Positions 5,922 through 54,184 of a stretch of 64,000 nt of DNA are shown one piece after another. The DNA comes from Parietichytrium sp. I65-24A. Lineage: Eukaryota; Sar; Bigyra; Thraustochytrida; Thraustochytriidae. The translations under genes and the position numbers were made by a program. Every line of letters begins with the position of its first letter. The stretch's first letter is position 1. The stretch is from NCBI GenBank assembly GCA_012862575.1, contig BLSF01000091.1:1-64000 (forward strand), read 5' to 3'. The notes beneath the pieces were generated by a model. It ran no database searches. It was not told where the DNA came from and saw nothing but the letters and a program-made list of their open reading frames with translations.

Positions 5922-8900
5922 ATGGCTGCGTCGGGCGGAATGGTGGTGAGCCTTGAGGAAAACCGCAACGCAGACGGGCCATTTCAGTACAGGTACGGAT
6001 TTCAGTTTGTGGGCGAACTGCAAAGTCACGCGTACCCCATAAAATGCGGCCAAGTGCATCTGAACAAGTCCCATCTTTGGCACTTGCTGACCGAAAGAAT
6101 TGCAGAGCGTAAGCAAGAACAGCGGGGCAGCGCTGATGAAGAGGCCCAAAGTGTGCACCTCATCGGGCGCAACCCGCTGATAAACATTTTGGAGAGTGGC
6201 ATATGCCAGACCGTGACTGTGGACTCTCGGACCGTGCGACTATGGGACGGCTTGTCGGAGAGCAAAAGGCTTTTGTTCCCCGGCGGCAAGTCAAACTATT
6301 ACCTGACCATTCTGTACATTCCAAGCAAAGGCGTCTACGTCGCGTCCACCATAGATCTGAAGCTCAAAGTATACGACACCAAGTTGGACTTGGTTGGCAC
6401 AATCAAACTAGACCAGCGATCAATTTATCAATTAGAGTTTTGTGTGAAAAAGGGCGAGCTCATCAGCGCTGGGGCAGACGGTGTGATCTTCTGGGGCTGG
6501 CAGGAAAAAAAGAACGAAGAATGGGACAAGCAAAGTAAGCTTTGGAAGTCCGTCACTACATACGATTTGTCTCGGAGAGCAGTTCTGCCGGACTCAGAAT
6601 GGGCACAAGGCATAAGAGTCGATAACAAGCTTGGTCTACTTTACGTATTTTGTGAAACCTCGCTGCGAGTGTACGACCTCGACACGTCTCTCGAGTGCGA
6701 AGCGCTCCTAAATATTCACCAGCAAAGCCTCACTGACTGCATTTTCTACAGTCATAGTCAGTATTACATCACCAGCTGCATGGGCGGTGAGATAAAGATA
6801 TGGTCCAAGCCTCGCGGCAACAGCTTGGTGCACAAATTCCACTCTCACGCAAAAGCGGTGACGAGGCTGTTACTGCACCCCCAAGAAAACACGCAAGGAC
6901 TTTTTATATCTAGTTCCCTCGACCAGACCGTCAGGGTGTACAGTCTAGAGAGCCTGTTAGAGCTCTACAAACTCAACTTGTCACATCCATGCACGTCTAT
7001 GGAAATCGTCTCAAGTAGCGAAATTCCCGAATTGAAACCACATGTATTGCTGTACACCAACTCCACGGCCCAGATCTGGAGGCTCAACCACCTTGCATCT
7101 CCCTTCTTACCGTATCGAGCGATTCCGAGATTAATTCAAGCTTACCCAGAGAGGTGTTTGCTCTCGGGCGCAGAACCTCCCCAGTTGCTGATACTTGGGA
7201 ATGACAGCCTAGTCCGCATCGTTGATCCAATTTCGAAGGAAACCATCTCGAGGCTAATCCCAGAGGGCGAGGGCGACATTGTTCTAGACATCCAATATTC
7301 CTATCCAAAACGGATGCTGTACACATTGGAACGCACAGGAGAGGTGACAGGACACTCCACCAGATCTGACCCCGCCACCCTTGAGTTCCGCTGGGCTCAC
7401 ACCGTGCTGCCCAAAGATACTGTTTGCGTAATTTGCAACTTGGAATTGGAAGGCGGAATTTATGTACCAAGACATGTTACCGCCAGAGCGGATATGATCT
7501 CCAAGCTTCAGCAGCCAATCAATGCACTCCGCGGTCATGTTGCTGGCGGCAATCATTGGCAGACCAGCGCGCTGCAAGCGGACCGCAAAATTGGCCGATC
7601 AAACTACCTCGTAGGTGGCACAGAGAAGGGATCGCTCTTATTTTGGGACCTTGAACGCTCCGGAGCCTTACGAGCGCAGGTTCATTCTGCTCACTTGAGC
7701 CAAATTTGCAAGCTCAAGCTCAGCAAAGCCGGCAGCACGACACCGCAGCTGATCAGCTGCTCTGAAAAGAGCGAGGTAAAAGTATGGGACCTCTCAACGC
7801 TTGCAGTCATCCATAAGTTGCAATTGGAGTCCCATAGTCCCGTCACCTGTTTGGCGCTTTCCGCCTCAGAACCCATGCTTCTTGTCGGGCATGAAAATGG
7901 GGAAACAGAAGTATTAGACACCACCACGTATGCGTCCGTTCCTGGGTCTAGGGGACAGAGCCACCAAGGGGCGCTCACCGTAGCTCTTTACAATGACATG
8001 CTTGCTATCCTCATCACGGCATCGAAAGATGGCTCTATTAAAGTCTGGGATCGAAAAATGAATCTGCTCCGAGAGCTTGATATACACGGCGAGCCTATCC
8101 ACGCTCTTGCGCTTCTGAGCGAGGACTCGGACCTTGTTTTTGGCGAAGGCGAGGCTGTTGTAAAGATTTCCTCCGAAACCTTTCTGACTCCAGAACTGGA
8201 CAAGCTGCGACAAATTTTAGCACGACATGGGTTCCGGTCAATTCAGGAAGCCCATGATGCCCAGCGGGAGGAGAAACCAATTCAACCAGTCAACCCCTTT
8301 GACGTGGCTGCGAGTATTGCAAAGCAAGTCTGTCAAGGTGTAAATAGCAACGACGGCGACCTCGGGGAGAACGAGGACGGCTTGGAAGACAACGATATTA
8401 GCAGAGTCATGAGCACACTACCATCAACTATTCCTTTCCAGGAGCGAGAGTCGGTCAGCCCAGTGCTTGTAAGACGAAGGTCGTCTTCACTTCGACGGAT
8501 TTCGCAGTTCGAGCTGGCAAAAGAACTAAACAAAGAAGATCGGAGCGCTCTGTCCGTGGCACTAGACGATGCCAAAATGCGCAAATCTTTGCTAAAAGAC
8601 TTGAACTCTACAGCAGCTCACGTGTCAATACCGACCGTCGCTCCGATCCTTTTTGACGGGAGCTTTGCTGCGCGAGAAGAAACTCAAGGAGTCAAGCCTG
8701 ACCTGGACGCAGAGGTTCTTCGATACTGTCGGCAACACCCTCCAGAACCAGGTTCAGCAGATGAGGAGGAGGAGCCAATCTTTCTCCGCCCGCGCGATTT
8801 CGTCAATCACTTTGGGAAAGCGCAGAACAGAGCTCCGAGATCCCCACAGAAAGCAGCTCGAGACGCGCCTTTCGTGCAGCGCGATACAAAGCCGAGAATG

Positions 8901-9062
8901 CTTGGCGGCATTCTGAACGTCACAGCGCTATCGAGAAGCAGTGACGAGTCGAATTCACCTGCGCTAGATGCTGAACCAAGCGTTATCTGCGTGCCACGCC
9001 CTCTGAGCGACTTTCCTAGCCGAACGCGGAGTCCCCGAACTACGAAACTCGCCAAACGTTAA
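5922..9062 (+). CDS. WD40-repeat protein, 1046 aa
   Basis: Single-exon gene encoding a large WD40 beta-propeller scaffold. Many blades are visible from about residue 90 to 760, for example VTVDSRTVRLWDGL, SCMGGEIKIWSKP, SSSLDQTVRVYSL, YLVGGTEKGSLLFWDL, SCSEKSEVKVWDLS and TASKDGSIKVWDRK; their number suggests two propellers. From about residue 770 the chain becomes charged and low in complexity, with Ser/Arg-rich segments such as RRRSSSLRRIS. There is no enzyme motif. The start is the first ATG, MAASGGMVVS. Propellers of this size occur in ciliary, trafficking and ubiquitin-ligase proteins, and nothing here picks one. A ciliary role would fit the DRC1 gene elsewhere in the window but is only a guess. 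Confidence 0.85.
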   Translation: MAASGGMVVSLEENRNADGPFQYRYGFQFVGELQSHAYPIKCGQVHLNKSHLWHLLTERIAERKQEQRGSADEEAQSVHLIGRNPLINILESGICQTVTVDSRTVRLWDGLSESKRLLFPGGKSNYYLTILYIPSKGVYVASTIDLKLKVYDTKLDLVGTIKLDQRSIYQLEFCVKKGELISAGADGVIFWGWQEKKNEEWDKQSKLWKSVTTYDLSRRAVLPDSEWAQGIRVDNKLGLLYVFCETSLRVYDLDTSLECEALLNIHQQSLTDCIFYSHSQYYITSCMGGEIKIWSKPRGNSLVHKFHSHAKAVTRLLLHPQENTQGLFISSSLDQTVRVYSLESLLELYKLNLSHPCTSMEIVSSSEIPELKPHVLLYTNSTAQIWRLNHLASPFLPYRAIPRLIQAYPERCLLSGAEPPQLLILGNDSLVRIVDPISKETISRLIPEGEGDIVLDIQYSYPKRMLYTLERTGEVTGHSTRSDPATLEFRWAHTVLPKDTVCVICNLELEGGIYVPRHVTARADMISKLQQPINALRGHVAGGNHWQTSALQADRKIGRSNYLVGGTEKGSLLFWDLERSGALRAQVHSAHLSQICKLKLSKAGSTTPQLISCSEKSEVKVWDLSTLAVIHKLQLESHSPVTCLALSASEPMLLVGHENGETEVLDTTTYASVPGSRGQSHQGALTVALYNDMLAILITASKDGSIKVWDRKMNLLRELDIHGEPIHALALLSEDSDLVFGEGEAVVKISSETFLTPELDKLRQILARHGFRSIQEAHDAQREEKPIQPVNPFDVAASIAKQVCQGVNSNDGDLGENEDGLEDNDISRVMSTLPSTIPFQERESVSPVLVRRRSSSLRRISQFELAKELNKEDRSALSVALDDAKMRKSLLKDLNSTAAHVSIPTVAPILFDGSFAAREETQGVKPDLDAEVLRYCRQHPPEPGSADEEEEPIFLRPRDFVNHFGKAQNRAPRSPQKAARDAPFVQRDTKPRMLGGILNVTALSRSSDESNSPALDAEPSVICVPRPLSDFPSRTRSPRTTKLAKR

Positions 9063-11022: not shown

Positions 11023-14000
11023 TTAGAATTGGCGATAAGAGCGAAAGTGGCTCTTGTATGCCCGAGACCGCTCGGTCTCCATTTCGTGGAAAGACTCTCT
11101 TAACTGCGTGTCCATGGACTGAAGTGTGCTTGCGAATCGCTCCTCGGCGAGCTTGGCGCGCTGAACCCCATACTGTTCCTGTTTCACTCTCTCCGGACGG
11201 AACAAGCGCTCAAGTGCGCCGCGCGCGCACTTTTGTATTTTTATTGCCGCCAGGTGAGCCATCTTTACAGCACTTGGATAATCGCGCCAGGCCTTCGGGT
11301 TCTTTTCCCCATCCAGCAGGTTCTTTCCCCCGCACATTACTTCTCCGTAGCCACTGTCGCCAATTTTCTGAATCAACCCGCGAATTCTCATGGAGCGCAG
11401 GGTCTGTAACGCCTGCGTGACGATTCGCGCGCCTAGATCAACTCGTACATTAATCAAATTTGCGAATTCACGAACTGACATGCTCTGCAAAGATATGTGC
11501 AGTGAGAGCTCAGGTGCACGCTTGTCCCGGCTCACACTCGCATCTACGTAATCAATGGAATCGGTCCCCGAGGATGCACTTGTCGACACTGCACCCATCT
11601 CTTCCCGCTCCGCCGTAACAAGAGTAGGGGCTAGACGACAATCTCGAATCAACTTCTTCTCTATTCGCCTTGTCGAGTCAGTCTTTTTCAGCAGTTTGTT
11701 GACATGCTCCAGAGAATTGCTCTCTGCGGACTGCCTCCCAAGTATGTCCTCCGGATTGAACTTCAGAGCGTGGGCTGCACCCCTACGCCGAGACGTCTGA
11801 AAGACACGAAAATCAGGAAATAGAAAGGACTGCGGCATGTCTTCGTAGCCCACGTCCGACAGCTCGAGCGCTTCCTCACCCTCTTCTTGAAACGCTTCTG
11901 GGGCATACTTGGCAATAAAGAACTGATGGCAAAAGCAACAGACACGTGCAGCGTCGTACATCGCGCTTGTGGTATCAAACTTGGACTCCTGCCTGACCTG
12001 AAGGTTGCTCGCTTTGATATGACTTAGAGAAGTTTCCCACTCGTTCCTGATCGTGGTAATCGCACGTCTCGTAACTATTCCGGGTAGGTTCTCAACAACA
12101 AATCTCTGCTGACAAAGTGCACAGCTGCTCCGTTTACTCTCTAGACCAGCTTTCTCCCTCGTTTTGGAATCTAGGTATCCCTTGGGTGGAGGCAAGCGGC
12201 TAGTACTCTGAACCGTTCGCAACTTTTTGTGCTTCGCTTGCTTTGCGGAAAAGGCTCGTATCCGGTGATGCATATCTTTCATGTCTCGCTCGGTTTCCCG
12301 GCGTATCAATTTTGCACTGGCGGGCCGCAGCAGCTTTTGGGGGGCGATCTTCTCATTAGGCGTGACAATCGATCGTGAAGTGTCCTTAGCACTTTTGGGG
12401 CGCTTGGTGGTACTAGGTGCCACGGTCCTCGCTCGTACTGCAACTGGAGAATCGATGTTGCAAAGCTCGCACTCCTCATCATCAGATGGATCAGAGGTCT
12501 TGCCTAATGAGACCTCGCGGTAAGTACCAATTATCTGGTCCATGCAGAGGAGGAACAACAGAAACCCCACCCAATCTATACCATCTCGCTGGACGATCTG
12601 TATATTCGTGTACAGTTCTGCTGCAAGATATAGCTCGTTCTTCTCAAAAGGCTCCCAAAGCAGAATACAGTCCTCTACGTATGTAAATCCACGCCCGCGG
12701 TAGCGGAACAAGGCTCCAAACTCTTGCCCTTCGATTGTCATAGACGGTGCGTGGTTTGGAAGACTCTGTGAAGGTTGCAGAGCGCATGCACAAAAGCACT
12801 CTCTCAATCTCGAAAACTGCCAAGACACAATATTGTCCAGGTTTGGGTCCAGGCCATCTCGCCGCACTTTGTCTCCATAAGTCTTCGCGCTTGTATCATC
12901 AAGGAGAGCAGTGCGGATGGCCTCCCGAATGCAGTTTTCCAGCAACTCTATAAACGACGACAAAAGCTCGTTGCGGCCGTAGGCAGCACTACAACGTGAA
13001 CGAAGAGAAGATATTGTTTCTCCTTTCTTCGCTGAGGTCGGTAGAGTGCTCGTGCTGTCCTTCAGCAATGTACATATGGAAATGTACTGAGATTCCCCGC
13101 GAAGAGCCCGGCTCATTTCGACGTCGAATTTAAACATGCTGAAGCTTTGCCGAACGACTGGGTCCAGTTGGAGATACTTTGGTAAATGGGAAAGTTCAGA
13201 CGCTTTTGACAGAGGTTGTGTGGTTGTTTGCCGCGTAGCATTTGCTTCAGTCTGCGAAGCCGGGGATTGCACAAGGAGCGGTTCCCCAAATATTTGACAT
13301 TGCAGAATCGCAAGTTGCCCTGGCCTCTCTAATTGAACTCGCACGTGCCTTCCGCGGCACTCTGCGCCAGTGACTGGGTGTCTGGGAGACCACTCCACGA
13401 CTTTGCTGCTGTACTCGAAGCGCCTCGATTGCTCCGACTGCTGGATAGCTTGTTGAAGAGAGAGCCCAGGCTCCAACTCAGAGCGCGATACAAAAATCCA
13501 AAACGGCTTGAGCTGTAGAGTGGGGATTTCGTTCCAAACTCGAATTAGATTGATGCTTGCGAGTTGACCAAAGTTAACCTGCCACCAGGCGAGCTCATTT
13601 GATTTGGTTTTTGCAGGATTGGTCACGAAGTTGTCATCGACCGCACTCAGGGCGCCGAAGATTGCCTCGTCGTGATATGTCGAGCTCTGGATGGCCAGCT
13701 TTGACAACGCGCAATTCGTCAAATGCCTTTCAACGGGCTTGAGCTGCGAAACGTTCTGGATGATGCCTTCTTTGTCTGCATCGCTCAACTCCTCAAAGTT
13801 TTGTTCGACCATCTTTTGGATAGAACGTCGAATCATGGTTTCCAAGCTCCGATCTTGCGCTTTAAGCTCTTCCTCGAATCTTCCATCGCTAGTCTTTGGT
13901 GGCTGTGGCTGAAAGAACTGCTCACAAAAAACGCAAACCTTTTCCGTAGAGTACACAAATGCGGGATTCTCCTTCTTTCGGGAGAGGTGAAAATCCTGGA

Positions 14001-16029
14001 CACCCCAGGACTTTTGCAGATTTGAAATGGCCTTGCGGGTGACTCTGCCAACGAGATTTGTAGTCTTAAAGACTCGCGAGCAGAGTGCGCAAGGGGAGGA
14101 GAATGTGCTGGCATCGTATCTGGCTGTGACTTTCGGCTTGCGATTTTTCTTGCGCATGTACACCTTCTCGGCTTTGCCCGTAAATGGATCATATTTAACG
14201 AAATATGGGCTCCGCGATTTGTTCTGCCGAGACGCCTGTAAACCGTCATCCTCCTCTCTCTCGCTCTCAAAGTGGGTGGGTTCTTGGCGCATTTGCGCTG
14301 CAAGCAAGGGGCCTCCTCCCGTGAGGGCCCGATGGATGGGCTCAAGGGGAACCTCCATCCCATCGTCGGTAAGGATCGTGTGGCGCCTAATGCTATTCCA
14401 GTGCAGAATCTCACCCGGCGAATGCAGACCTGAGGCTCTTGAAGTCGAGTCGGTTCCTGGGTTATCGGCGAAACGATCCTCGGAGTCCTCATAGGCTCGA
14501 GTCTCATTTGATTCCGAGTTGTTAAGGCTGTCATCATTGTCGTCAACATCATGATTGAGGTACTTTTCAGTGTTTCCCTTCAGAAAACTGACCTTTCGTC
14601 CCGGTTTGCCCTCCCTAGTGTGGTCCGCCTCGCGAATGTCGCGACTGACGCTTGCACTGATAAAAGAAAAGTTTCGCAAGACCCCTTTCTTGCTCGGACT
14701 AACGAGCTGCTCAGAAGCGTTTCGAACTTGGACTCGGTGGTGTTTGGACTGAACCCTCTCGATCCCGTATTTCCACGGTATCGTGAACGAGGATCCAGCT
14801 GAGGAAGGCTGAAGACTTGGTGATTTCAGTGTGGGCGACATTGGAGAAACGTCATTGGTGTGTGATCTCTCATTTGTGTTTGGATCCGCGGTATTAATCT
14901 TTGCCCGGAGTTGCGATTTGAACTCTGCTGAAGGCTTGGCCAACGTGAAGGGTATACAATCCATTGCTAAATCACCCGTCTCATCGCGTAAAGTATGAAT
15001 TTGTGAAAGTATGGCGTCGTGCAGTGGGTGCTTCCAAGATATACGAGCAGACACGCCTTTCGATACTTTCATTTCAAGTGACAGAGGCTGCAATAGAAAG
15101 TATTCTGCAGAATCGAAGCTCCCGAGAACTTCATATCCAAGACCATTCAAAGCAGCCACTACCTTGAGCCGCCCAACCTTTGATTCTCCCTGCGAGGAGT
15201 AGAAATAGAACAAGAACAGAAACACCTTTGACAAATCTGAGTGAAGAGGAGGTTGTGTCTGTCCAGTATTCCGAAGCAAATTATCAACAAGTGCCGCGCA
15301 CAACTTCGCCTGATTGATTGTTTGACCAGCATTTTGCTCGAGCTTACAAAGCTGAGCAACCTGTGCGCCGAGCAAAAGAGACTGCTCTATCGCCTTTAAG
15401 CTACTCAAAGAATACAAATATTTAAACCCCGCGGAAGACTGCGCCTGTTCAGAAAACTTTGGCCGCATGGAGACCGTCAGTTCTTCAAAGCGCTCGCAGA
15501 GATGGTGCGTGACCCCTGCAGCTCTGCGGAAGAACGATATCGCGTCCTCCACGCTCTCCTCGCTGCTCGAGTTCGCCAAAAGGCCTGCCTTTCCGCAAGA
15601 CGCCAGAAGCACCGCGTATGCCATCAAGGTTGTGAATATCTCGCCGTCGACGCCTCTGCAGGTGTAAGGCTTCCCGTTGCATACGCTCGTCCCATCGCAA
15701 GAGATGTTGATAAAGTCGAACTTCCCGTTCAGCTTTGAATACTTGGACATTGAGTCGAGTAAGCTGAGGCACTCTAGGTAGCGCTCCATCAGGTTCACCG
15801 CCAACGAAAGATTGCATCGCATGCCGGCCTTTAGTTCATCTGCAACCGCATCACGCATCCGGCTCGCCTCGGCAAGCACTTGCAAAACATCTTGATACTC
15901 TCCTGCTCCGCCCGGCGTTTTCAAATTTTGGTCAACGAGACACTCTCTCGCAAAATCAAGGTGCTGCAACCTTGGCAGACAGAACTTGGGTAAAAGGAAC
16001 GCGACCACGTCCTTCCCTGCCTTGCGCAT
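11023..16029 (-). CDS. 1668-aa protein: BRO1-like, two CxxC modules, F5/8C-like domain, IQ motif
   Basis: No family match is recognised for the whole chain. The frame is closed upstream by a TGA directly before a GTG, so the ATG of MRKAGKDVVAFLL is taken as start. Approximate order: residues 1-330 resemble a BRO1 fold (EDAISFFRRAAGVTHHLCERF, then SLKAIEQSLLLGAQVAQLCK). Residues 646-700 hold CALCSRVF...VCVFCEQFF. Residues 770-920 look like a discoidin/F5-8 type C domain (SSTYHDEAIFGALSAVDDN, WWQVNFGQ, IRVWNE, GRHVRVQLE). Residues 1303-1361 hold a second copy of the cysteine module, CALCQQRF...VCCFCHQFF. An IQ-like motif (AAIKIQKCARGALERLF) lies near 1586. There is no signal peptide or transmembrane segment, so it is probably intracellular. 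Linkers are Ser- and charge-rich. BRO1 domains bind ESCRT-III-like partners and IQ motifs bind calmodulin or centrin; function here is open. Confidence 0.8.
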   Translation of the reverse strand: MRKAGKDVVAFLLPKFCLPRLQHLDFARECLVDQNLKTPGGAGEYQDVLQVLAEASRMRDAVADELKAGMRCNLSLAVNLMERYLECLSLLDSMSKYSKLNGKFDFINISCDGTSVCNGKPYTCRGVDGEIFTTLMAYAVLLASCGKAGLLANSSSEESVEDAISFFRRAAGVTHHLCERFEELTVSMRPKFSEQAQSSAGFKYLYSLSSLKAIEQSLLLGAQVAQLCKLEQNAGQTINQAKLCAALVDNLLRNTGQTQPPLHSDLSKVFLFLFYFYSSQGESKVGRLKVVAALNGLGYEVLGSFDSAEYFLLQPLSLEMKVSKGVSARISWKHPLHDAILSQIHTLRDETGDLAMDCIPFTLAKPSAEFKSQLRAKINTADPNTNERSHTNDVSPMSPTLKSPSLQPSSAGSSFTIPWKYGIERVQSKHHRVQVRNASEQLVSPSKKGVLRNFSFISASVSRDIREADHTREGKPGRKVSFLKGNTEKYLNHDVDDNDDSLNNSESNETRAYEDSEDRFADNPGTDSTSRASGLHSPGEILHWNSIRRHTILTDDGMEVPLEPIHRALTGGGPLLAAQMRQEPTHFESEREEDDGLQASRQNKSRSPYFVKYDPFTGKAEKVYMRKKNRKPKVTARYDASTFSSPCALCSRVFKTTNLVGRVTRKAISNLQKSWGVQDFHLSRKKENPAFVYSTEKVCVFCEQFFQPQPPKTSDGRFEEELKAQDRSLETMIRRSIQKMVEQNFEELSDADKEGIIQNVSQLKPVERHLTNCALSKLAIQSSTYHDEAIFGALSAVDDNFVTNPAKTKSNELAWWQVNFGQLASINLIRVWNEIPTLQLKPFWIFVSRSELEPGLSLQQAIQQSEQSRRFEYSSKVVEWSPRHPVTGAECRGRHVRVQLERPGQLAILQCQIFGEPLLVQSPASQTEANATRQTTTQPLSKASELSHLPKYLQLDPVVRQSFSMFKFDVEMSRALRGESQYISICTLLKDSTSTLPTSAKKGETISSLRSRCSAAYGRNELLSSFIELLENCIREAIRTALLDDTSAKTYGDKVRRDGLDPNLDNIVSWQFSRLRECFCACALQPSQSLPNHAPSMTIEGQEFGALFRYRGRGFTYVEDCILLWEPFEKNELYLAAELYTNIQIVQRDGIDWVGFLLFLLCMDQIIGTYREVSLGKTSDPSDDEECELCNIDSPVAVRARTVAPSTTKRPKSAKDTSRSIVTPNEKIAPQKLLRPASAKLIRRETERDMKDMHHRIRAFSAKQAKHKKLRTVQSTSRLPPPKGYLDSKTREKAGLESKRSSCALCQQRFVVENLPGIVTRRAITTIRNEWETSLSHIKASNLQVRQESKFDTTSAMYDAARVCCFCHQFFIAKYAPEAFQEEGEEALELSDVGYEDMPQSFLFPDFRVFQTSRRRGAAHALKFNPEDILGRQSAESNSLEHVNKLLKKTDSTRRIEKKLIRDCRLAPTLVTAEREEMGAVSTSASSGTDSIDYVDASVSRDKRAPELSLHISLQSMSVREFANLINVRVDLGARIVTQALQTLRSMRIRGLIQKIGDSGYGEVMCGGKNLLDGEKNPKAWRDYPSAVKMAHLAAIKIQKCARGALERLFRPERVKQEQYGVQRAKLAEERFASTLQSMDTQLRESFHEMETERSRAYKSHFRSYRQF

Positions 16030-17155: not shown

Positions 17156-18910
17156 ATGGAAGATGACTTTGATGGAAATGACTTTGAAACGCGCGAGCAT
17201 AACCGCGTGAAATACAATGTTCACGTGGCCCATTGGGACGGAGGTTCGTTCGAAGGAGACGTTAGGAATGGATTTGACGCTGAATGGCTGCAAGTTGTGA
17301 GGCAAGGGGCGTTGGCCAGTGTGGAAAAGTGGGCAGGCAAGTTCATGTGGGCGCTGGAAGGATTTGAGCTGGAATTGGATTCGGAAAATGGCGTTCTGCA
17401 CGGGAATGTGAGCTTTTGCGATAGCGTTGTCGACGAGTGGTTCGTGGTCTTTTTGCTAGTGGAGATATCCAACCTTTTCCCTGGGCTGTGCGCTGCATCT
17501 GTAGAGGATGGAGATGGGCAGTTTTTGCTCATCGAGGCAGCAGATTATCTGCCCGAGTGGATTACGCCTGAGAACAGCGAGAATCGAGTATTCATCTATA
17601 AAGGCCATCTGCATTTGGTTGGACCAGACCTGGTTCCGGATGGCCCAAATCTTACGGGCAGGGTTTTAAACTTTATCAAATCAACGGCTCAGACGACTGT
17701 AGCTAGCGAGGAGCTTGAGCATGCAGCATTCGGGAGATATATTCACCAGCAGTTTCCGTCGCCAGGAATCGAAGAATCTCGTCACAAGTGCACATGTAAA
17801 GTCCCTTTGAAGTGCGCGAGTCTTCTTCGGAGTCAACCTTCACTTGCTGTCTTCGCCGCCCACGCGTTTTATCACCGGGCCGAACACGAGGAGGTGGATG
17901 TAGAGGTTCCCCTGAAGCACTTTTGCGAGGAGGAAAAAATGGCTGTTGTTCAATTGGAGCTACCCAGATTCGCATTCGCTCACTTGCTTCGACAAGAATT
18001 TCGGGTGCCAGAACACTTTGAAAGAAACGAAGAGATCCGCTCAGATCTCCACAGTCAGGACCGCATCACTCAGTCCAGAGCGTACATTGGGGTCAAAATA
18101 TCTTGTGGGTTGGAGATTTTAGCATCCCAGTCAGCTCTACAACAGGAGAAACCCTGCACCAGTTCAAAGGCTACCTCCATTCCTTCGAAGATGGCTAAGA
18201 TCATGCAGCAAATGTTTCCCCACGTTGATTTAGACTCTAGGTTGAGCAAGGACGACTTTCTCCCTAACGAAACCTGTGCAGCAGCATATGTCCAGAGAGC
18301 TTTAGCAGAACCGTTCGACGCGATGGAGCAAGGCATTGATTCTCACCTGGTGGATGATGATGATTCGTGGCTTGACGTTTCTCCAGGTGACGTGGAGCAA
18401 ATGATTGAATCCACAATTACCGAGGAGGACGTGTCCGAGCTCGTAAACAAGTTTCGCGAATTTATTGAAAAAGAGTCAGATTTTGACGGTATTGGGGAGG
18501 CGCAGCCACCTCGGAGTGCACCTGGCATTCAGCAGACCGAGACCGTGAACGAGACCGTCCAACTGGACATGGAAAAACTCATGCGTGTCTTGGAAGTAGG
18601 CAACTCAGGCGGCGAAGAAAACACGGGCGATGAATTTGATGGCGAAGCTGACATCGATGCTGCAGTAGACGAAGGGGGCGACTTGGACGAAGAAAGTCAA
18701 TTTGGAGCCTGCCTTGAGGCTGCAATGGACGCAGAGCTCAGAGGTCAGGAGAACGTTGCTGCAACGTGTCCCGATAAAGCTTTAAGTCCTGTAGACATCG
18801 ATCTCAGCTTGGTGGAGAATCTGCTGAACGCATTTCAGTTGCAGAATGGACAGCCCGGTCCAGCGTCTACGGTACTAAGCGAAATGGGGCTTCAACAGCG
18901 CAAGTCCTAG
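17156..18910 (+). CDS. ECD: Ecdysoneless/SGT1 (ECD) family protein
   Basis: Homologue of ecdysoneless (human ECD, also called hSGT1), linked in animals to U5 snRNP assembly, PRPF8 and R2TP interaction and cell-cycle control. The single-exon product is 584 aa, close to the family size of about 640. The N-terminal fold shows VKYNVHVAHWDGG, then VVDEWFVVFLLVEISNLFPGL and AADYLPEWITPENSENRVFIYKGHLHLVGP, the characteristic ECD signature. The C-terminal part has the short motif DDSWLDVSPGDVEQMI at about residue 400, which is typical, followed by an acidic disordered tail. The first ATG, MEDDFDGNDF, is used. R2TP contains RUVBL1, whose gene lies 2.7 kb away, but neighbouring here is probably chance. 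Confidence 0.93.
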   Translation: MEDDFDGNDFETREHNRVKYNVHVAHWDGGSFEGDVRNGFDAEWLQVVRQGALASVEKWAGKFMWALEGFELELDSENGVLHGNVSFCDSVVDEWFVVFLLVEISNLFPGLCAASVEDGDGQFLLIEAADYLPEWITPENSENRVFIYKGHLHLVGPDLVPDGPNLTGRVLNFIKSTAQTTVASEELEHAAFGRYIHQQFPSPGIEESRHKCTCKVPLKCASLLRSQPSLAVFAAHAFYHRAEHEEVDVEVPLKHFCEEEKMAVVQLELPRFAFAHLLRQEFRVPEHFERNEEIRSDLHSQDRITQSRAYIGVKISCGLEILASQSALQQEKPCTSSKATSIPSKMAKIMQQMFPHVDLDSRLSKDDFLPNETCAAAYVQRALAEPFDAMEQGIDSHLVDDDDSWLDVSPGDVEQMIESTITEEDVSELVNKFREFIEKESDFDGIGEAQPPRSAPGIQQTETVNETVQLDMEKLMRVLEVGNSGGEENTGDEFDGEADIDAAVDEGGDLDEESQFGACLEAAMDAELRGQENVAATCPDKALSPVDIDLSLVENLLNAFQLQNGQPGPASTVLSEMGLQQRKS

Positions 18911-31204: not shown

Positions 31205-33412
31205 ATGGAGGAACTAGCGGCGTCAACGAACAGCGGCGATCAGGACGAGCGCATCCGCGCGAGAAGGCAGCGCATTGAGAAGCGCACAGTGTCTCGCACG
31301 GAGGAGGGGAAGAACAGTAAAGGTAGCGACCCGGAAGAGAAGCAGAAGAGCAAACGCAAGCAGCAAGTGGCCAACAGTTTGGTGAGGCTGGATAAGAAAA
31401 AGGCGTCCACCATCGAGTCAGTGACGAGCATCAGGGTCGAAGCGGACCACAACGAAAATGCGCGACGCATACAGGAGGACGAGAAGCGCCAGAGGCGACT
31501 CCACGGCCTTCAAGGCGAGGCGTTGTCTAGCAGTAAGAAGAATGCTGCTGTGGAAATGCGCTGGGCGGAACTCATGGAGTACAATATGCCGCTCGAGCTA
31601 CACGAAGAAGTGGAGAAGCAGCGCTCTGCATGCGACGATATCATGCACAGTAAAGATAAGCTCATCAAAGACTTTCAGCGCGAGCTAAAGATTAAGGATG
31701 AAGAGTACGTCAAGGCTTTGAAACGACAGGGCGATGATATTGAGCAGCTTTTGTCTCGCATGGACGCCCAGTACAAGGAAATGCAGGGTCTTTACGAGGA
31801 GGAGCTCGTTACCATTGAGGAAGCGTTTTTGCAGGAGAGAAACGAGCTTATTGAGGCGAACCGGGCCGAAATTGATTCTCTTTTTGAGAGGCGAAGGGTC
31901 ATGGAAATGAATTACATGGAGGCGCGCCAGGAACAAGAAGCCAACAATCAACTCGAGCTAAATGAGCTGCGAACAAAGGACACGGAGGACTACAATCAGC
32001 TGAAAATTAAACTTGAGACAGACATTCAGACGCTGGAGCAGCAGTTAGAGGAGATGCGGGCGACCTATCAGCTAAACACCGAAAAGTTGGAGTACAACTA
32101 CAGAGTGCTTACAGAGCGAGATATGGAGAACTCTGCTACTCTTGGCCAGCAAAAGCGCAAGCTCGCGCGCCTCAAGGATGCTTTGTCAACTCTCACAACC
32201 AAATATCATAATTCGGACGCCAAGTACAAGCAAGAGAACATGGATCTTACCGAGGAGTATCGCCGTATCACGAAACAATACAAGGACCTGCAAAGCAAAT
32301 TTCGCCACTTCGAGATTGCCGACAACAAAAAGTACCACGAAGTCTGGCAAATGCACTACGAAGAAGTTATGGAACAGGTGCACAAGCTGCTCAGTGCAGA
32401 CAAGCTTGTCACTGAGCAGCAACTTGGATTTGCCTGGGCTGCTCCAAGCGAAGACGTATTGGATGGGACACTCGGCAGCCCCACGAACGGGGGCTCGGCG
32501 GGTAGAAAACTTGTAGAGGCCGCCCAGCTTCAGGGTCAGACGAGCGCTGACAGCGCAGCAGCAATTCCAGCCAAAGACGCAGCAACAGAGTCTGGGAAAG
32601 ATGGTGCCGAGCCTGCTACTGGCAACGCTGAGGCTGGTTCAAAGAGTGTCGCACAGGCAGCTACGGAGGAGCGAAGCAAGGTTCTCAACGCTAAGGTAAA
32701 GCACATGCTCAAGCTGCTCTCTGAGGAGGCTGGCTTTCTAGTGGATGCGAAAGTTAAGGAAGAGCTAGATGGCTTGGAGAAAGAGCAAGCTGCTCTACTT
32801 CGCGCTGACTCGATTTTAAAGGCTCTCAGCATTGAGACAGAAAAGGATCTCATGGGATTATTGTCTCTCTTTTTTGAAAGCGTGACTGATGACGAAGAAG
32901 ATGCGTTCGCGTTCGAAAAAGCACCCGACCAAAATTCAAAACTGAAAAGTCTTGGTCTCAAAGTGAAGCCAGATGAGGTCGTGCGGGTCGTAAAAGCTTT
33001 TGTCCAAGAGCAGAATGCTGGTACTGAAGGGGGAGCAGTTCGTCATATTTCCAAGAGGAAAACCCGCGAGCAACAGTCAGAGGAAGAGCAACGAACCACT
33101 GACGCACGGCGGGAGCGTGAGCGCAAGGAAGAGATTGAGTACTGGAGCACATTGGCGAACGTCGTGCCGGACAAGACAATGAGGGTATGGGGAGCTCTCG
33201 AGCAGGCTTTAGGGAAGTACAACACTATTCTTGGCGAACGCGCAGAAAGCCTGCAGGAGATCGGGTCACTCAAGAACCAGAATGAGGAGCTCAAGAAACT
33301 CTTAAATCAGTACCTTGGATCACAAGTCGTGAAGGATCTCATCGTTCCTCCACTCGAGACCGTGTCCCAACCTGGACCAGTCTCTCCTTCAAGCCCCGGA
33401 GGGAATTTGTAA
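31205..33412 (+). CDS. DRC1: Dynein regulatory complex protein 1 (DRC1)
   Basis: DRC1 is the coiled-coil subunit that anchors the nexin-dynein regulatory complex to axonemal doublet microtubules and is needed for ciliary beating. The single exon encodes 735 aa, against about 740 in human. It begins with a basic region (RIRARRQRIEKR) and then runs as a nearly unbroken coiled coil from about residue 80 to 390. Family segments include WAELMEYNMPLELHEEVEKQ, KDKLIKDFQRELKIKDEEYVKAL, EEAFLQERNELIEANRAEID and LQSKFRHFEIADNKKYHEVWQMHYEEV, all typical of DRC1. The C-terminal region has the second helical domain (NVVPDKTMRVWGALEQALGKY). The gene is the best evidence in the window that the organism builds a motile flagellum. 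It converges on DOCK with a 111-bp gap. Confidence 0.93.
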   Translation: MEELAASTNSGDQDERIRARRQRIEKRTVSRTEEGKNSKGSDPEEKQKSKRKQQVANSLVRLDKKKASTIESVTSIRVEADHNENARRIQEDEKRQRRLHGLQGEALSSSKKNAAVEMRWAELMEYNMPLELHEEVEKQRSACDDIMHSKDKLIKDFQRELKIKDEEYVKALKRQGDDIEQLLSRMDAQYKEMQGLYEEELVTIEEAFLQERNELIEANRAEIDSLFERRRVMEMNYMEARQEQEANNQLELNELRTKDTEDYNQLKIKLETDIQTLEQQLEEMRATYQLNTEKLEYNYRVLTERDMENSATLGQQKRKLARLKDALSTLTTKYHNSDAKYKQENMDLTEEYRRITKQYKDLQSKFRHFEIADNKKYHEVWQMHYEEVMEQVHKLLSADKLVTEQQLGFAWAAPSEDVLDGTLGSPTNGGSAGRKLVEAAQLQGQTSADSAAAIPAKDAATESGKDGAEPATGNAEAGSKSVAQAATEERSKVLNAKVKHMLKLLSEEAGFLVDAKVKEELDGLEKEQAALLRADSILKALSIETEKDLMGLLSLFFESVTDDEEDAFAFEKAPDQNSKLKSLGLKVKPDEVVRVVKAFVQEQNAGTEGGAVRHISKRKTREQQSEEEQRTTDARRERERKEEIEYWSTLANVVPDKTMRVWGALEQALGKYNTILGERAESLQEIGSLKNQNEELKKLLNQYLGSQVVKDLIVPPLETVSQPGPVSPSSPGGNL

Positions 33413-48253: not shown

Positions 48254-51200
48254 CTAGAGCATGTCATCAGATACCGTTGATCCCTTGGCGGAGATCTCAA
48301 GCGCCTCGACCGGCTCTTCTTGGCGTCGCTTCCAGAGCACGTAGAGAGCGGCTGCAGCGCCGACCACAAGAGCTGCTCCGCCTGTGGCAAGGCCGATTGC
48401 TAGAGCTGAGGAACTGTCTTGTTCCACGGCAAAATCGTCAGTTACGGTAGGCGCGACAAATAGCGAAGTGACTCGCTCTGCAGTGTTCAGCGAACTCTCC
48501 TTGGCGGCGCTCCTGGTAGCGTTTACCTCTGCTTCGGTTGGCAGAACCCAAGATTGCTCTGTCCCGTCAAATGCTGGAATGACCGGCGCGTTGAAGAACA
48601 GGCCGATGCTTTCATCATCCGCGCTGAGCTGCCGTCCCTCGGTCGTACTGATTGGCATCGTCGATTCAGAGAGGCGAAATTGGTTTCCGAACAGGTCCCT
48701 GATTCCGGTGAGAGTCAGGTTCAGCGTTGCGTTTGACCAAAATAACACGTCCTCGGCCCTGCTTACTTCTAAGATGACGTGCACTTGAGTCGACTGTACG
48801 GGGCAGTAAACCTGAGCAGCTTGCGAGCCACGCTCCTCGGTGCGTATTATGGCGGTGACGTGCAAGCAATCGACGGCCTCGTTGAAGCCAAACTGCGCAA
48901 TTGGGAACGCCTTCGTTGGCCTGAGGAGAATTTTCGTGTTCGAGTATGTTAGTAGAACTGGCCCGCGAGTGTCCACAAAGCCAGCGCGAACCCCAGATCT
49001 AGTCTCGCCTGTTTTGCGAGTCTCGCCACCCTGAGTTGTCTTGGTGCACAGTGTTCTCAACTCGAACAAATATCTTTGTTCATCTCGAAAGGACGACCCG
49101 GCCGAGCCGGTGAGTGCAGCCGTATTGAGTGTGACCAAAGCGTTGCCGTAATTGTCTTCCTGTTCCGCAAATGTGACGATGCGCTGTAGTCCTTGGTCCA
49201 TCAAGAAACGTTCTGGAAGTTGCACCCACTCATCCACTCCGCCTGCCTCCTTCGTCCAGAGGGACACGGTGACGCCAACATCTTCCATGTCCCGCCACTT
49301 GGTCGGCAGAGGGTTTTTGGCAGAAACGCTGAACGTCGTCGTCTCCGAGGACACCAGAAATGTCGAATCTGGCTCCTTCAAGTCACCGCTCCAGAGAACT
49401 TGTGGGCATGCCGATGCCCACACAACGTCAAAACTGAAGGGCGCGGAGACAGAGCTGTCGCAACTGGATGACACTTTACCAGAAGTGCTCAGAGACAAAA
49501 GTGCTGTGTCAAGGCGCTCCAAGTAGACGTAAATATTTGTCTTGGTTTTCCCTTCCAGCGTAAGAGAGAGAGGCTGATTGAGGCTGGCGCTGCCGATCTG
49601 GAAACTAACTGCGCTTGCAGCAATTTCCGCGTCGAGCTCGATAACAACGGAAATATCTTCGCCTGCAGCCATGTCCATAGTAGAGACTTCCAGGATAAAT
49701 CGCGTCCTGTCGGATTCCAACGGGCCTGATGGAGACTCGATGATGTTCAAGCCGAGCTTTTGTCGGGCGTCTGTGCCCTCGACGTGGGGGCACATGGTCT
49801 CTCCGCCACACACCTCAAATATGAGCGAGCCAGAGTACGGTGACTCATAAGCGTCCAAACACAAGTTATCTCCACTGTCTTGCTCGGTGAGGAAAACTTC
49901 CAAACTCTGAGTGCTTACGAGACCGCTCGTATCGGTCGTTTCGCCCGTGACTACGGTGGTGAATTCCAGGTTAGTGCTCAGCGTTGGACCAACGACGAAG
50001 CCTCCAAAACCAAACATCGCCGAGAGATCCATCCCGACCGTATTCGTTTTTGTGAAGGTGTAGCCCGAATATGCTGTGACACTTGAAGACGCCAGTGCAC
50101 TTTCGCGCGCAATCGTGATATCGCTCGATCCAAAGGTGAGACGATTGGCGGAAGAAGCCCCGCCGCTGAGCAAACCTGCCAGGTTTACTGGCTTGTTTCG
50201 GGCTTGCAATTTGTCATCCTCCCAGTGCTGCAAGAGGGAATCCCACTTGATTTTGGAACTCTGAGCAATCTTTAGAAGATTCGCTGCCTCCGACTTTTGA
50301 TCTTCGGAAGTTTCGAGGCTATGCAGAGCTGCATTGCTGTCATCGATCGTCTGCTGAATCTTTTTCTTCGCCAAGCCGCAGTCGGCTCTTGAGAAGAAAA
50401 CAACAGACTCTTCTCCTCTGCCCCAGAATGTGGAGTCGGTGCTGTTCGGAAGGCAGGTGAGCGGGTTCCAGTAAACAAATCTAGAGCGAATGAACTTTGC
50501 GACGGAACCGATTAGGAGAACCATGTCAGCGCTGGAACCACCATCTCCGCTTGACGACGTGCTCAGTGTCATAGATTCACTTTTGATTCGTGTCGTCAAA
50601 GTGTCCTCGTACTTTTCGTTCCGAAGAGAGTAGTCACTGTCTCCAACGCTTCCGGACACGCTCAAATCTACCGTTTTGAAAGGGCAACCACTGAAGGGTA
50701 TGCAGATCTCCAGCTCAGTTGAAGCTTCGACCCCGACTGCAATCGAGGAACCAGTTTCCCTATCTGAAGAGTAGAAGACGTGTGTCTCCAGCGACCTTTC
50801 CATCGACATCGACACGGATTGGTAGCTACCGGATCCTATCGGGGGACTGTACAGGTAGTAGAGTGGCTTGAAGGATTGCTCGTCGGTGAAGTAGGTAACG
50901 ACACTATCCGCAGTGAGCTGCTTGTGCCCCAGTACAAGAACTTTCACAGGCTGAGCATCAGATTGCAAGTCCAATTCGGAGTGAGACATGGTGGGCACGA
51001 TTTTCAGGACGTAATCCGCGAGCTCAAAACCTTCTGCGACGGGGTCGCCAGTGAGAAGATATTGCCTTGCAAAGGTTTGTCCGTACTCGTCAACCTCAAT
51101 CGCTGCGTCGCACCCTCCCTTGGCCGAGTGGCAAGGGTCGTTCTCAGCTTGAAGCTCAGAGCTGAGGTGCAAGCGGGTTCCGTTGGGCATACGATTGCAT

Positions 51201-54184
51201 GAGGCTATAGTTCCATCCTGCCAAACATAAGGCGTCTCAAAGGCAAATTCAAGCTCCATATAGTTGTTGGCCTCGACAACTTTCATATCCTTGAAGAGGT
51301 CTTGAACGCATTCAAAGTCGGACGAAGAATATCTCTGGTTTGTGCCGCGCGACACTCTCGGGGTGATCGTCGGATCCGGGTGAAAGACAAAGCTTACCGA
51401 GTAGTCAGAGTTGTTGAGGTCTATGCTGCGCTCGGGGAAGACGGTCAGAAACTGGTCGCTGATTTTCTGAGGGCCAACTCCGATGCTCATGAGCCTTTCA
51501 GTGAATTTTGTGAACTCAAATTTGAACAACTGCGCCGGTAGAGGAATGAGAAAGTTCTGTCGCTGGAGGGACTTGACTACTTTCGTACCAGAAATTTGGC
51601 ACAGCTGATCCGAAATTTCAACATCAAAGTCGAACAGGCTACCCATGCAGCTCGAAACACCCGCTGTTACATTCAACATACGGGTTGTGGTATCTAAGAT
51701 GAGAATTGTCTGATCGTATACAAATTCCAGACCGTCAGCCGACAAAAGAGGTGCCCCAGCTTCGTATCCTGGCTTTAGCTCGAAGGTGTGGTCACCAAAG
51801 GAGAGCTCGATCCTGGCCATCGTGTGCTTCGGGAGTGAAATTGAGAACTGTCCTCTTTTCTTGCCATCACTTCCGTCGCTTGTGGTCATGTTCTGAATCT
51901 GTCGACCGGAGCCATCGAACACCTTGACAAGCACATCGGCAACTCCGCAGCCTGTTGCCTCAGTGAGCTCATATGAGTTGAATTCATACCCGACAATGCC
52001 TGTAACTGTCACGGCGGAGATGTCCACGACACCAATCTGAAGAGTTCCGCGATGTGCCACAGTGAAGTCTCTCTGCACCGGCGTCCACACTTTCTCGCTG
52101 CAAGCCCGGGGCTCATTCGAGCAGTATCTAAAGTCTCCGCCGGTGATTCGTTTCACGCTGACAAGAGACACTTGGGTGCTGGCGGAGTTTGCATCCATAC
52201 CGGCCACTAACACTGGAATTCTAAGGCTTCCACTTGCTCCGCCAGTTGAATATTCCAATGTCTTACCTCCCACCTTGATTTCAACCGAAGAATTTGGAAG
52301 GCCGTCTCCGTTGAGCGCTGCAACGTTCACCACAAGCTCAAATATGAATTCCACTCTTGACGTAATGCAATTGCTGAATTCTTCCCTCTTTGTGCCCGTC
52401 TCCTTACTCCCAGCTAGCCATGAATCCCTTTTGTATTTCGCCTCATCTTTCCACTTGCCAAACACGCAAACTTCGTGCACGTCACCAACATTCGAGCCCT
52501 CATCATTTAGAAGAATCTCCGGCTCAGAGAATACAGTTTCATCGCACCTCGCAGCACCTCCAATTGAAAGCTTCTCACGACCATTGAGCCGCACACCATA
52601 TGTTTCCACATCAAGAACGACAGGTCTAAACGGAATTTCCAGCTTGACAATGCCGCTGGAAAGGATCTGTACGACATCCATGTCATCCACGCCGTATTTT
52701 GTAAAGTCATAGGTTGAAGCGTCTTGATACCATGTCAAGATCTGTTCGGATGATGCCAGCTTCGAGTCACTGCAGATGTTGTGCTCACAAATCCGGCCGC
52801 CGAAGTCTTGGAAGCAATTGCCGCAAAATCCGTCGCCAGCATAACTAAAACATATCCCTTCAGGACACGTACCTTGGCTGGTTATGCACTTCACGTCGCC
52901 GTCGCACATTGGTCCGTACTTCAGAGGGGCACAGCGATTCTGCGGGATGGAGCTCTTCTCTGGACAGTATTTGTTTGCCGGACAGGAAATCGTTTCGTAT
53001 GAGCCTCTCGGACAATAGGTTCCGAGCGGGCAAGCCTGTGGTCCACTTTCTCCGCCCTGGCAATAGAATCCTCCAGCACAGACTGCACATCCACCGGCAC
53101 CATCAAGGTATGAGCCAGGTGCGCAAGTGTAACATGAGTGGACACCAACGAAAGAATTTCTGTCATTGGTCTCAGATGTCAACAAGTTCTCGTACTTCAA
53201 GTCATGAAAGAGTGGTGAAAAGGGGAATTTAAAAAGCCTGCATCGGTCACTGTACGCGGAGATGTCACCGTCACCATTGTTGCCACTTCTCACGAACTCG
53301 AACACCTGGCAATTATAGAGATTTACTTGGCACAAAGCGCGACACTCCTCCATGTTTGAGACTGTATGAGTCGCGGTGAGAATAGCCTTCGACCCACTTA
53401 CATCTGCGTTCCTCTGCACGCATCCGGGCTGGTTAAAGAGCTCAACGAACTTGGCGCTTGTGGTACAGAATGGAATTGCCGTCACCTTGCGAGTGTCGGC
53501 CAAGGTCATAGATGTAACTGTGTTCCACTTCCAGTTTATATTGTTGTTGAACAGAGTGCAAGTGTTTTGCTCAAAGTCAAAAGTATAGGCCCCACAGCTC
53601 GTCGCAGCAGTTGAGGCTGTGCTTCCCCCCAAACGCGCGGTTTCGCACATCAAATTGTAGTCTCTCTCTTTCGGGATTCCAACCTTCCAAGAACTCGCCA
53701 TTTTATCCATATATGTTCCTCTCAACTGGACGTGACGATGGTGATTAAGGATATTGGCATGAATCTTATGACTCCCCATGTAATAATAGTCTTCAAAGAG
53801 CTCCGCGTTGTAGCACGGACTGATTGACAGAGCTCGCAAATAGTCATTAGGATATTTGGGTTCCACAAATGACGAGCCCTCACCTCGTATCCATACGGCA
53901 TGCTGATCTCCCGAGCCGACATCTATATCCTCAGTGTTGACAAAACGGGCACCGCTCTCGCTTGATTTAGCGTATGCATGTGCACACGCCTGGATGCACT
54001 TCTCGACCGTATTGGCGCTTGTCTCCAAGACGGGCGAAAAATTATTGGTAGTTCCAAAGGTGACACATCCAGGGCTGATATGAATATCCCCAGGTTGAAC
54101 CCGTCGATACACCACTGCGGCTGCCAGCTCAAAGAGAGCTAACCACGTCGCGAAAAGCAACGCAAACCCTTTCTTCGACCACAT
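48254..54184 (-). CDS. Giant type I membrane protein, 1976 aa, with PAN/apple-like and Cys-rich EGF-like regions
   Basis: Not recognised as a named family. The start is taken at the ATG giving MWSKKGFALLFATWLALFELAAA, a clear signal peptide; the frame extends upstream but has no earlier useful ATG. The ectodomain begins with two Cys-containing stretches resembling PAN/apple modules (TVEKCIQACAHAYA; NMEECRALCQVNLYNCQVFEF). A Cys-rich ephrin-receptor or GCC2/GCC3-like block follows at about 350-475 (CYTCAPGSYLDGAGGC, CPLGTYCPRGSYETISCPANKYC). The remaining 1400 residues look like beta-sandwich repeats with scattered Cys pairs (for example VSSCMGSLFDFDVEISDQLC). A single transmembrane helix lies at about 1921-1950 (AIGLATGGAALVVGAAAALYVLW), then KRRQEE and a tail of about 25 residues. 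A surface receptor or adhesin role is inference. Confidence 0.85.
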   Translation of the reverse strand: MWSKKGFALLFATWLALFELAAAVVYRRVQPGDIHISPGCVTFGTTNNFSPVLETSANTVEKCIQACAHAYAKSSESGARFVNTEDIDVGSGDQHAVWIRGEGSSFVEPKYPNDYLRALSISPCYNAELFEDYYYMGSHKIHANILNHHRHVQLRGTYMDKMASSWKVGIPKERDYNLMCETARLGGSTASTAATSCGAYTFDFEQNTCTLFNNNINWKWNTVTSMTLADTRKVTAIPFCTTSAKFVELFNQPGCVQRNADVSGSKAILTATHTVSNMEECRALCQVNLYNCQVFEFVRSGNNGDGDISAYSDRCRLFKFPFSPLFHDLKYENLLTSETNDRNSFVGVHSCYTCAPGSYLDGAGGCAVCAGGFYCQGGESGPQACPLGTYCPRGSYETISCPANKYCPEKSSIPQNRCAPLKYGPMCDGDVKCITSQGTCPEGICFSYAGDGFCGNCFQDFGGRICEHNICSDSKLASSEQILTWYQDASTYDFTKYGVDDMDVVQILSSGIVKLEIPFRPVVLDVETYGVRLNGREKLSIGGAARCDETVFSEPEILLNDEGSNVGDVHEVCVFGKWKDEAKYKRDSWLAGSKETGTKREEFSNCITSRVEFIFELVVNVAALNGDGLPNSSVEIKVGGKTLEYSTGGASGSLRIPVLVAGMDANSASTQVSLVSVKRITGGDFRYCSNEPRACSEKVWTPVQRDFTVAHRGTLQIGVVDISAVTVTGIVGYEFNSYELTEATGCGVADVLVKVFDGSGRQIQNMTTSDGSDGKKRGQFSISLPKHTMARIELSFGDHTFELKPGYEAGAPLLSADGLEFVYDQTILILDTTTRMLNVTAGVSSCMGSLFDFDVEISDQLCQISGTKVVKSLQRQNFLIPLPAQLFKFEFTKFTERLMSIGVGPQKISDQFLTVFPERSIDLNNSDYSVSFVFHPDPTITPRVSRGTNQRYSSSDFECVQDLFKDMKVVEANNYMELEFAFETPYVWQDGTIASCNRMPNGTRLHLSSELQAENDPCHSAKGGCDAAIEVDEYGQTFARQYLLTGDPVAEGFELADYVLKIVPTMSHSELDLQSDAQPVKVLVLGHKQLTADSVVTYFTDEQSFKPLYYLYSPPIGSGSYQSVSMSMERSLETHVFYSSDRETGSSIAVGVEASTELEICIPFSGCPFKTVDLSVSGSVGDSDYSLRNEKYEDTLTTRIKSESMTLSTSSSGDGGSSADMVLLIGSVAKFIRSRFVYWNPLTCLPNSTDSTFWGRGEESVVFFSRADCGLAKKKIQQTIDDSNAALHSLETSEDQKSEAANLLKIAQSSKIKWDSLLQHWEDDKLQARNKPVNLAGLLSGGASSANRLTFGSSDITIARESALASSSVTAYSGYTFTKTNTVGMDLSAMFGFGGFVVGPTLSTNLEFTTVVTGETTDTSGLVSTQSLEVFLTEQDSGDNLCLDAYESPYSGSLIFEVCGGETMCPHVEGTDARQKLGLNIIESPSGPLESDRTRFILEVSTMDMAAGEDISVVIELDAEIAASAVSFQIGSASLNQPLSLTLEGKTKTNIYVYLERLDTALLSLSTSGKVSSSCDSSVSAPFSFDVVWASACPQVLWSGDLKEPDSTFLVSSETTTFSVSAKNPLPTKWRDMEDVGVTVSLWTKEAGGVDEWVQLPERFLMDQGLQRIVTFAEQEDNYGNALVTLNTAALTGSAGSSFRDEQRYLFELRTLCTKTTQGGETRKTGETRSGVRAGFVDTRGPVLLTYSNTKILLRPTKAFPIAQFGFNEAVDCLHVTAIIRTEERGSQAAQVYCPVQSTQVHVILEVSRAEDVLFWSNATLNLTLTGIRDLFGNQFRLSESTMPISTTEGRQLSADDESIGLFFNAPVIPAFDGTEQSWVLPTEAEVNATRSAAKESSLNTAERVTSLFVAPTVTDDFAVEQDSSSALAIGLATGGAALVVGAAAALYVLWKRRQEEPVEALEISAKGSTVSDDML

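Follow-up and report, generated by a model that had tools for sequence, protein, structure and literature searches.

The window analysed here, a stretch of 64,000 nucleotides, carries a long open frame at 11023–16029 on the reverse strand. Translation of the minus strand placed its ATG at 16029 and its stop at 11023 with no internal stop, and as read the gene is a single exon encoding 1668 amino acids. The GC contents at codon positions 1, 2, and 3 of the frame are 0.545, 0.427, and 0.560, respectively, compared to ranges of 0.568–0.661, 0.342–0.473, and 0.530–0.615 in six neighbouring genes, with position 1 slightly under the values of its neighbours. When the frame was divided into segments of 200 codons each, GC at position 1 exceeded that at position 2 in all nine of them, as it does in the six neighbouring genes measured, and third-position GC ranged from 0.455 to 0.675 along the frame. 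The 1668-residue protein claimed in an earlier note, which was made from the letters of this DNA, thus corresponds to an intact, stop-free frame, and we saw no sign of two fused genes in it. A BCCIP homologue on the opposite strand ends 41 bases beyond the stop of the gene, and an SGT1 homologue, also on the other strand, starts at 17156. Elsewhere in the window, a WD40 protein of 1046 aa (5922–9062, plus strand) lies near both the 1668-aa gene and a DRC1-like gene described below and may also be axonemal. The 1976-aa protein encoded at 48254–54184 on the minus strand looks by eye like a surface protein: it seems to begin with a signal sequence, is rich in Cys in places, and is hydrophobic near its C-terminal end.

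The most distinctive feature of the 1668-aa protein is a pair of four-cysteine modules at residues 647–706 (13912–14091, minus strand) and residues 1303–1371 (11917–12123, minus strand). Both follow the layout C-x-L-C-x3-F-x4-L, a variable stretch, and Y-x4-6-C-x-F-C-x-Q-x-F, and this pattern was found in none of 5000 shuffles of the protein. In a phmmer search of the whole protein against the Protein Data Bank, module 1 matched TbDC13 (9e5c, E 2.5e-9) and DC6 (9e78, E 5.2e-8). The same two chains were found for module 2 when residues 925–1668 were used as the query (E 2.0e-7 and 2.1e-6, respectively), with a match reaching into the linker that precedes the first CxxC. Each copy on its own therefore has a significant match to TbDC13 and DC6 across the whole module. 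In module alignment A1, residues C3, L5, C6, F10, L15, Y49, C55, F57, C58, Q60, and F62 are invariant in all eight rows. A profile of the eight modules, which itself contains TbDC13 and DC6, listed seven sequences up to E 10, including these two, and the next best match (E 0.024) consisted of short zinc-finger stretches. Judged by these matches, both four-cysteine modules are members of the DC6/TbDC13 family. The earlier note had seen the pair of Cys modules on both sides of a discoidin-like domain, and the pair is real; that it matches DC6/TbDC13 had been missed.

We searched the genome (42.5 Mb, 172 contigs) with protein and pattern queries and found at least six modules in five genes, both counts being lower bounds: two in the window protein and one each in L002, L005, L007, and L011, whose products are 481, 449, 199, and 444 aa long, respectively, when read from the first ATG with introns disregarded. 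L005 lies at 415–1764 on the plus strand of G000:C72. L011, at 865–2199 on the minus strand of G000:C31, has a longer module of 89 residues and weakly matches CFAP300 (14 bits against a cut-off of 27). The pattern C-x-F-C-x-Q-[FL]-F matched the genome seven times, six of the matches being the known modules, and the reversed-pattern control matched nowhere. We took the seventh match (L016, G000:C19:520594) as chance: its frame is interrupted 30 residues ahead of the match and lacks a CxLC over that distance. No Pfam family reached its cut-off over the Cys module. The nearest, the OTT_1508 deaminase family (OTT_1508_deam), aligned at the end of module 1 with 16.8 bits against a cut-off of 27 (E 0.007); since the module of L007 drew the same family (12.9 bits, E 0.11), the resemblance lies in the CxFC end, and the likeness, which seems to have no explanation beyond cysteine spacing, was treated as chance. 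Scans with short exact peptide patterns, which find close relatives only, confirmed no relative of the window protein in viral contigs, where TbDC13 and L005 also served as queries, or in prokaryote genomes, and PHROGs gave no match at E 0.1 or below.

Compared pair by pair, the eight modules are 30–41% identical, except for the two trypanosomatid rows, which share 81%, and in a tree of the eight only this trypanosomatid pair is supported (97/95), with four of the five inner branches left open. The two window copies are 37% identical to each other, no closer than they are to the copies of other genes and of trypanosomatids. The internal duplication proposed earlier is thus not specific to this protein; a recent duplication is not supported, and the two copies are better read as members of an old, expanded module family. 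Beyond the module and its flanks, BLAST detected no similarity among the five module proteins at E < 0.1. With the module stretch of TbDC13 as the only query, five of the six modules were recovered; the five genome matches included both window modules (E 9.6e-11 and 7.3e-8), and the top match was L005 (E 8.8e-12) rather than the window protein. Because L005 matches TbDC13 best in the genome, the window protein is not the simplest counterpart of DC6, for which L005 is the better candidate.

PMC7617938 describes DC6 of Leishmania tarentolae as a subunit of the outer-dynein-arm docking complex that binds zinc. Its partner there is the FKBP-like DC5, the DC5/DC6 pair attaches through DC6 to the DC1/DC2 coiled coil, and neither subunit contacts the dynein arm; the model is reused in PMC12637542. 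The window copies 1 and 2 share the four-Cys module with DC6 (LtaP16.1580; PDB 9e78 and 9y6s), to which they are 35% and 37% identical, and with TbDC13 (PDB 9e5c; Trypanosoma brucei by name), to which they are 41% and 36% identical, respectively. The 176-aa chain of DC6 and the 114-aa chain of TbDC13, whose position rests on its deposited name, have one matched module each, whereas in the window protein two are spread over 1668 aa. Outside the module, neither protein matched the window protein in the whole-protein Protein Data Bank search. In PMC7617938, DC5 and DC6 are termed trypanosomatid-specific and without obvious paralogs, whereas the module is found here in five genes.

Between the two modules, a discoidin/F5-8C-like domain with moderate support spans residues of about 765–917 (13279–13737, minus strand). 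Profile and Protein Data Bank matches cover about 765–851, and the C-terminal part, GRHVRVQLERPGQLAILQCQIFGE, which presumably belongs to the same domain, was placed by eye from general features of the family. In the Protein Data Bank, 4gwi, an F-type lectin chain, matched at E 7.1e-4 when the cut-out stretch was the query and at E 0.016 when the whole protein was. Among Pfam profiles, PF22633 reached E 0.022 with the whole protein and E 0.0016 with the cut-out stretch (19.5 bits, cut-off 27.8), and PF00754 reached E 0.049 with the cut-out stretch (14.2 bits, cut-off 28.2). As controls for the cut-out stretch, a shuffled copy matched nothing and a reversed copy matched a homeodomain at E 0.049, as weakly as PF00754, which alone would therefore carry little weight. 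When the whole genome was searched with PF00754, no locus scored at E 1 or better, not even in the window. The alignment to two lectin fragments in hhalign had a probability of 88.2, which adds little because both fragments had been picked by the earlier search with the cut-out stretch and are not independent of it. The window shares the WWQVNFGQ-type core and the N-terminal half with F-type lectin/F5-8C domains such as 4gwi, but the HH in the YGHHS stretch of the lectin fragments has no counterpart in it. A single-sequence AlphaFold model of the region shows some strands, but its mean pLDDT of 39.5 is too low to speak for or against a beta-sandwich. The discoidin call of the earlier note is moderately supported, by 4gwi and by Pfam matches that stay under their cut-offs.

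The N-terminus is suggestive of a BRO1 domain at residues 52–195 (15445–15876, minus strand). PF03097 matched at E 0.0016 with the whole protein and at E 7.5e-5 with residues 1–400, for which the score was 22.2 bits against a cut-off of 35.1. The alignment spans profile positions 38–163 of 385, and nothing was aligned beyond position 163. The stretch around EDAISFFRRAAGVTHHL resembles the core of BRO1 domain proteins (ALIX, BROX, and HD-PTP), although the match falls under the family cut-off. In the controls for this stretch, one reversed copy matched another family at E 0.091 and one shuffled copy matched nothing. In hhalign, the comparison to a three-sequence BRO1 alignment had a probability of 6.5, and in phmmer residues 1–400 hit no chain of the Protein Data Bank at E 10 or lower. 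A search of the genome with the BRO1 model gave four matches, none of them in the window protein; two, with 324.1 and 90.6 bits, passed the cut-off. Single-sequence AlphaFold produced a helical model of the region whose mean pLDDT of 47.2 is likewise too low to speak for or against the fold. With this model as the query, none of 255 Foldseek matches reached E 0.001 (best E 0.38), and there was no BRO1 protein among the 50 of these 255 that were listed. The proposed BRO1-like N-terminus thus keeps a match at E 7.5e-5 and falls short in the curated cut-off and in hhalign.

The remaining features are less distinct. An IQ-like motif, IQKCARGALER, is located at residues 1598–1608 (11206–11238, minus strand); the pattern claimed earlier is present, but it is weak, with 14.0 bits for PF00612 against a cut-off of 20.3, and shuffling the protein 5000 times produced it in 88 cases. 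By hydropathy, the claim that the protein lacks a membrane helix is not clear-cut. Over 19-residue stretches, the Kyte-Doolittle mean peaks at 1.59 for residues 1150–1168 (GIDWVGFLLFLLCMDQIIG), just under the customary membrane-helix threshold of 1.6, and with this borderline segment a membrane link is possible. For residues 925–1200, Pfam gave nothing at E 5 or below. The basic linker drew a match to gamma carbonic anhydrase (E 0.0018, 18 bits against a cut-off of 250; 3vnp, E 0.38), which was treated as chance. No described protein with the same domain combination was found in Pfam, NCBIfam, the Protein Data Bank, or the literature searched.

The genome also holds flagellar genes. At 31205–33412 on the plus strand, 15 kb from the 1668-aa gene, lies a gene with NYD-SP28 and its C-terminal domain (PF14772, E 1.2e-27; PF14775, E 9.7e-23), which we take to be DRC1 of the nexin-dynein regulatory complex. 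DHC_N1, the N-terminus of dynein heavy chains, had 11 matches on eight contigs and none in 14 control genomes. ODAD1_CC had 14 matches in the genome, 10 of them over the cut-off; six of 14 prokaryote controls also matched this profile, none over the cut-off. Counterparts of the docking-complex proteins DC1/DC2 may lie among the 10. Given these axonemal dynein, ODAD1-type, and DRC1 genes, the source very likely builds an axoneme that has dynein arms and proteins of the docking-complex type, and it is probably a flagellated single-celled eukaryote. An intron-split gene in the window, presumably RUVBL1, is interrupted by a GT...AG intron, across which the two coding flanks meet in a cysteine codon that has KVPF on one side. 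The intron, in the one gene examined, and the presence of genes on both strands of the window argue against a kinetoplastid. Thraustochytrid PUFA synthases carry a tandem acyl-carrier array; none was seen here, the nearest of 11 genome matches lying about 3 kb apart in a search in which repeats are under-counted.

What is best supported is that the window protein has two DC6-type modules and that its eukaryotic host carries flagellar genes, and both the domain order and the hunch of a ciliary protein in the earlier note hold up as far as tested. By association, an axonemal location is likely. We give roughly even weight to the protein being a large flagellar or axonemal scaffold whose zinc modules bind docking-complex-type coiled coils, a proposal in which localisation, zinc, and binding are all inferred. 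The seat on docking-complex coiled coils would follow by analogy to the one family member with a published position. In such a scaffold, the four cysteines of each module would hold a zinc ion, and on the doublet microtubule each module would clamp a coiled coil of the docking-complex type. The modules are about 600 residues apart, and a single molecule could link two neighbouring coiled-coil sites, an attractive bridging role suggested by the presence of two modules. The BRO1-like and discoidin-like domains may hold further partners, and the IQ-like motif could bring calmodulin, which is the weakest step.

Discoidin-like domains are also known from ciliary proteins (CEP104 and IFT25, for example), and this background fits a broader role of the module. 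A DC6-type module could be a general zinc-stabilised adaptor to coiled coils or microtubules in flagellated cells, with the window protein placed elsewhere, e.g. at the basal body, the transition zone, or a flagellar root. The spread of at least six modules over five genes that share no detected similarity beyond module and flanks is consistent with this reading, and the five genes suggest several attachment sites, which are not necessarily in the docking complex. However, the two module proteins with solved structures are DC6, a docking-complex subunit according to PMC7617938, and TbDC13, so named in its deposition, and we regard the general adaptor as possible but rather improbable. It is unlikely that the protein is a BRO1-type trafficking or ESCRT adaptor working at endosomes or in membrane remodelling, with the zinc modules and the discoidin domain incidental. 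The weak N-terminal BRO1 match points that way, but it lies below the curated cut-off, covers positions 38–163 of the 385 in the profile, and has an hhalign probability of 6.5; in the genome search with the BRO1 model, two matches passed the cut-off, and none of the four listed was the window protein. That the frame artificially joins two genes, a possibility raised in the earlier note and one that its length, its dissimilar parts, and a third-position GC of 0.455–0.675 might suggest, is very improbable given 5 kb free of stops, the higher GC at position 1 in nine of nine segments, and a DC6-type module in each half of the protein.

Returning to the flagellar scaffold, the presence of six or more copies of the module in a genome that does not seem to be a kinetoplastid's indicates that it is wider than reported in PMC7617938. 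We tentatively propose that the DC6-type zinc module was not invented by trypanosomatids but is an old clamp for coiled coils of the flagellum, one that was lost or has gone unrecognised where axonemes have been solved and that has spread here to at least five genes. The window protein would then be a two-headed cross-linker of neighbouring docking-complex sites with BRO1-like, discoidin-like, and possibly calmodulin-linked parts. With several natural variants of the module at hand, its binding mode could be worked out from them, and with the window protein one could ask directly whether two docking sites can be bridged by a single molecule.
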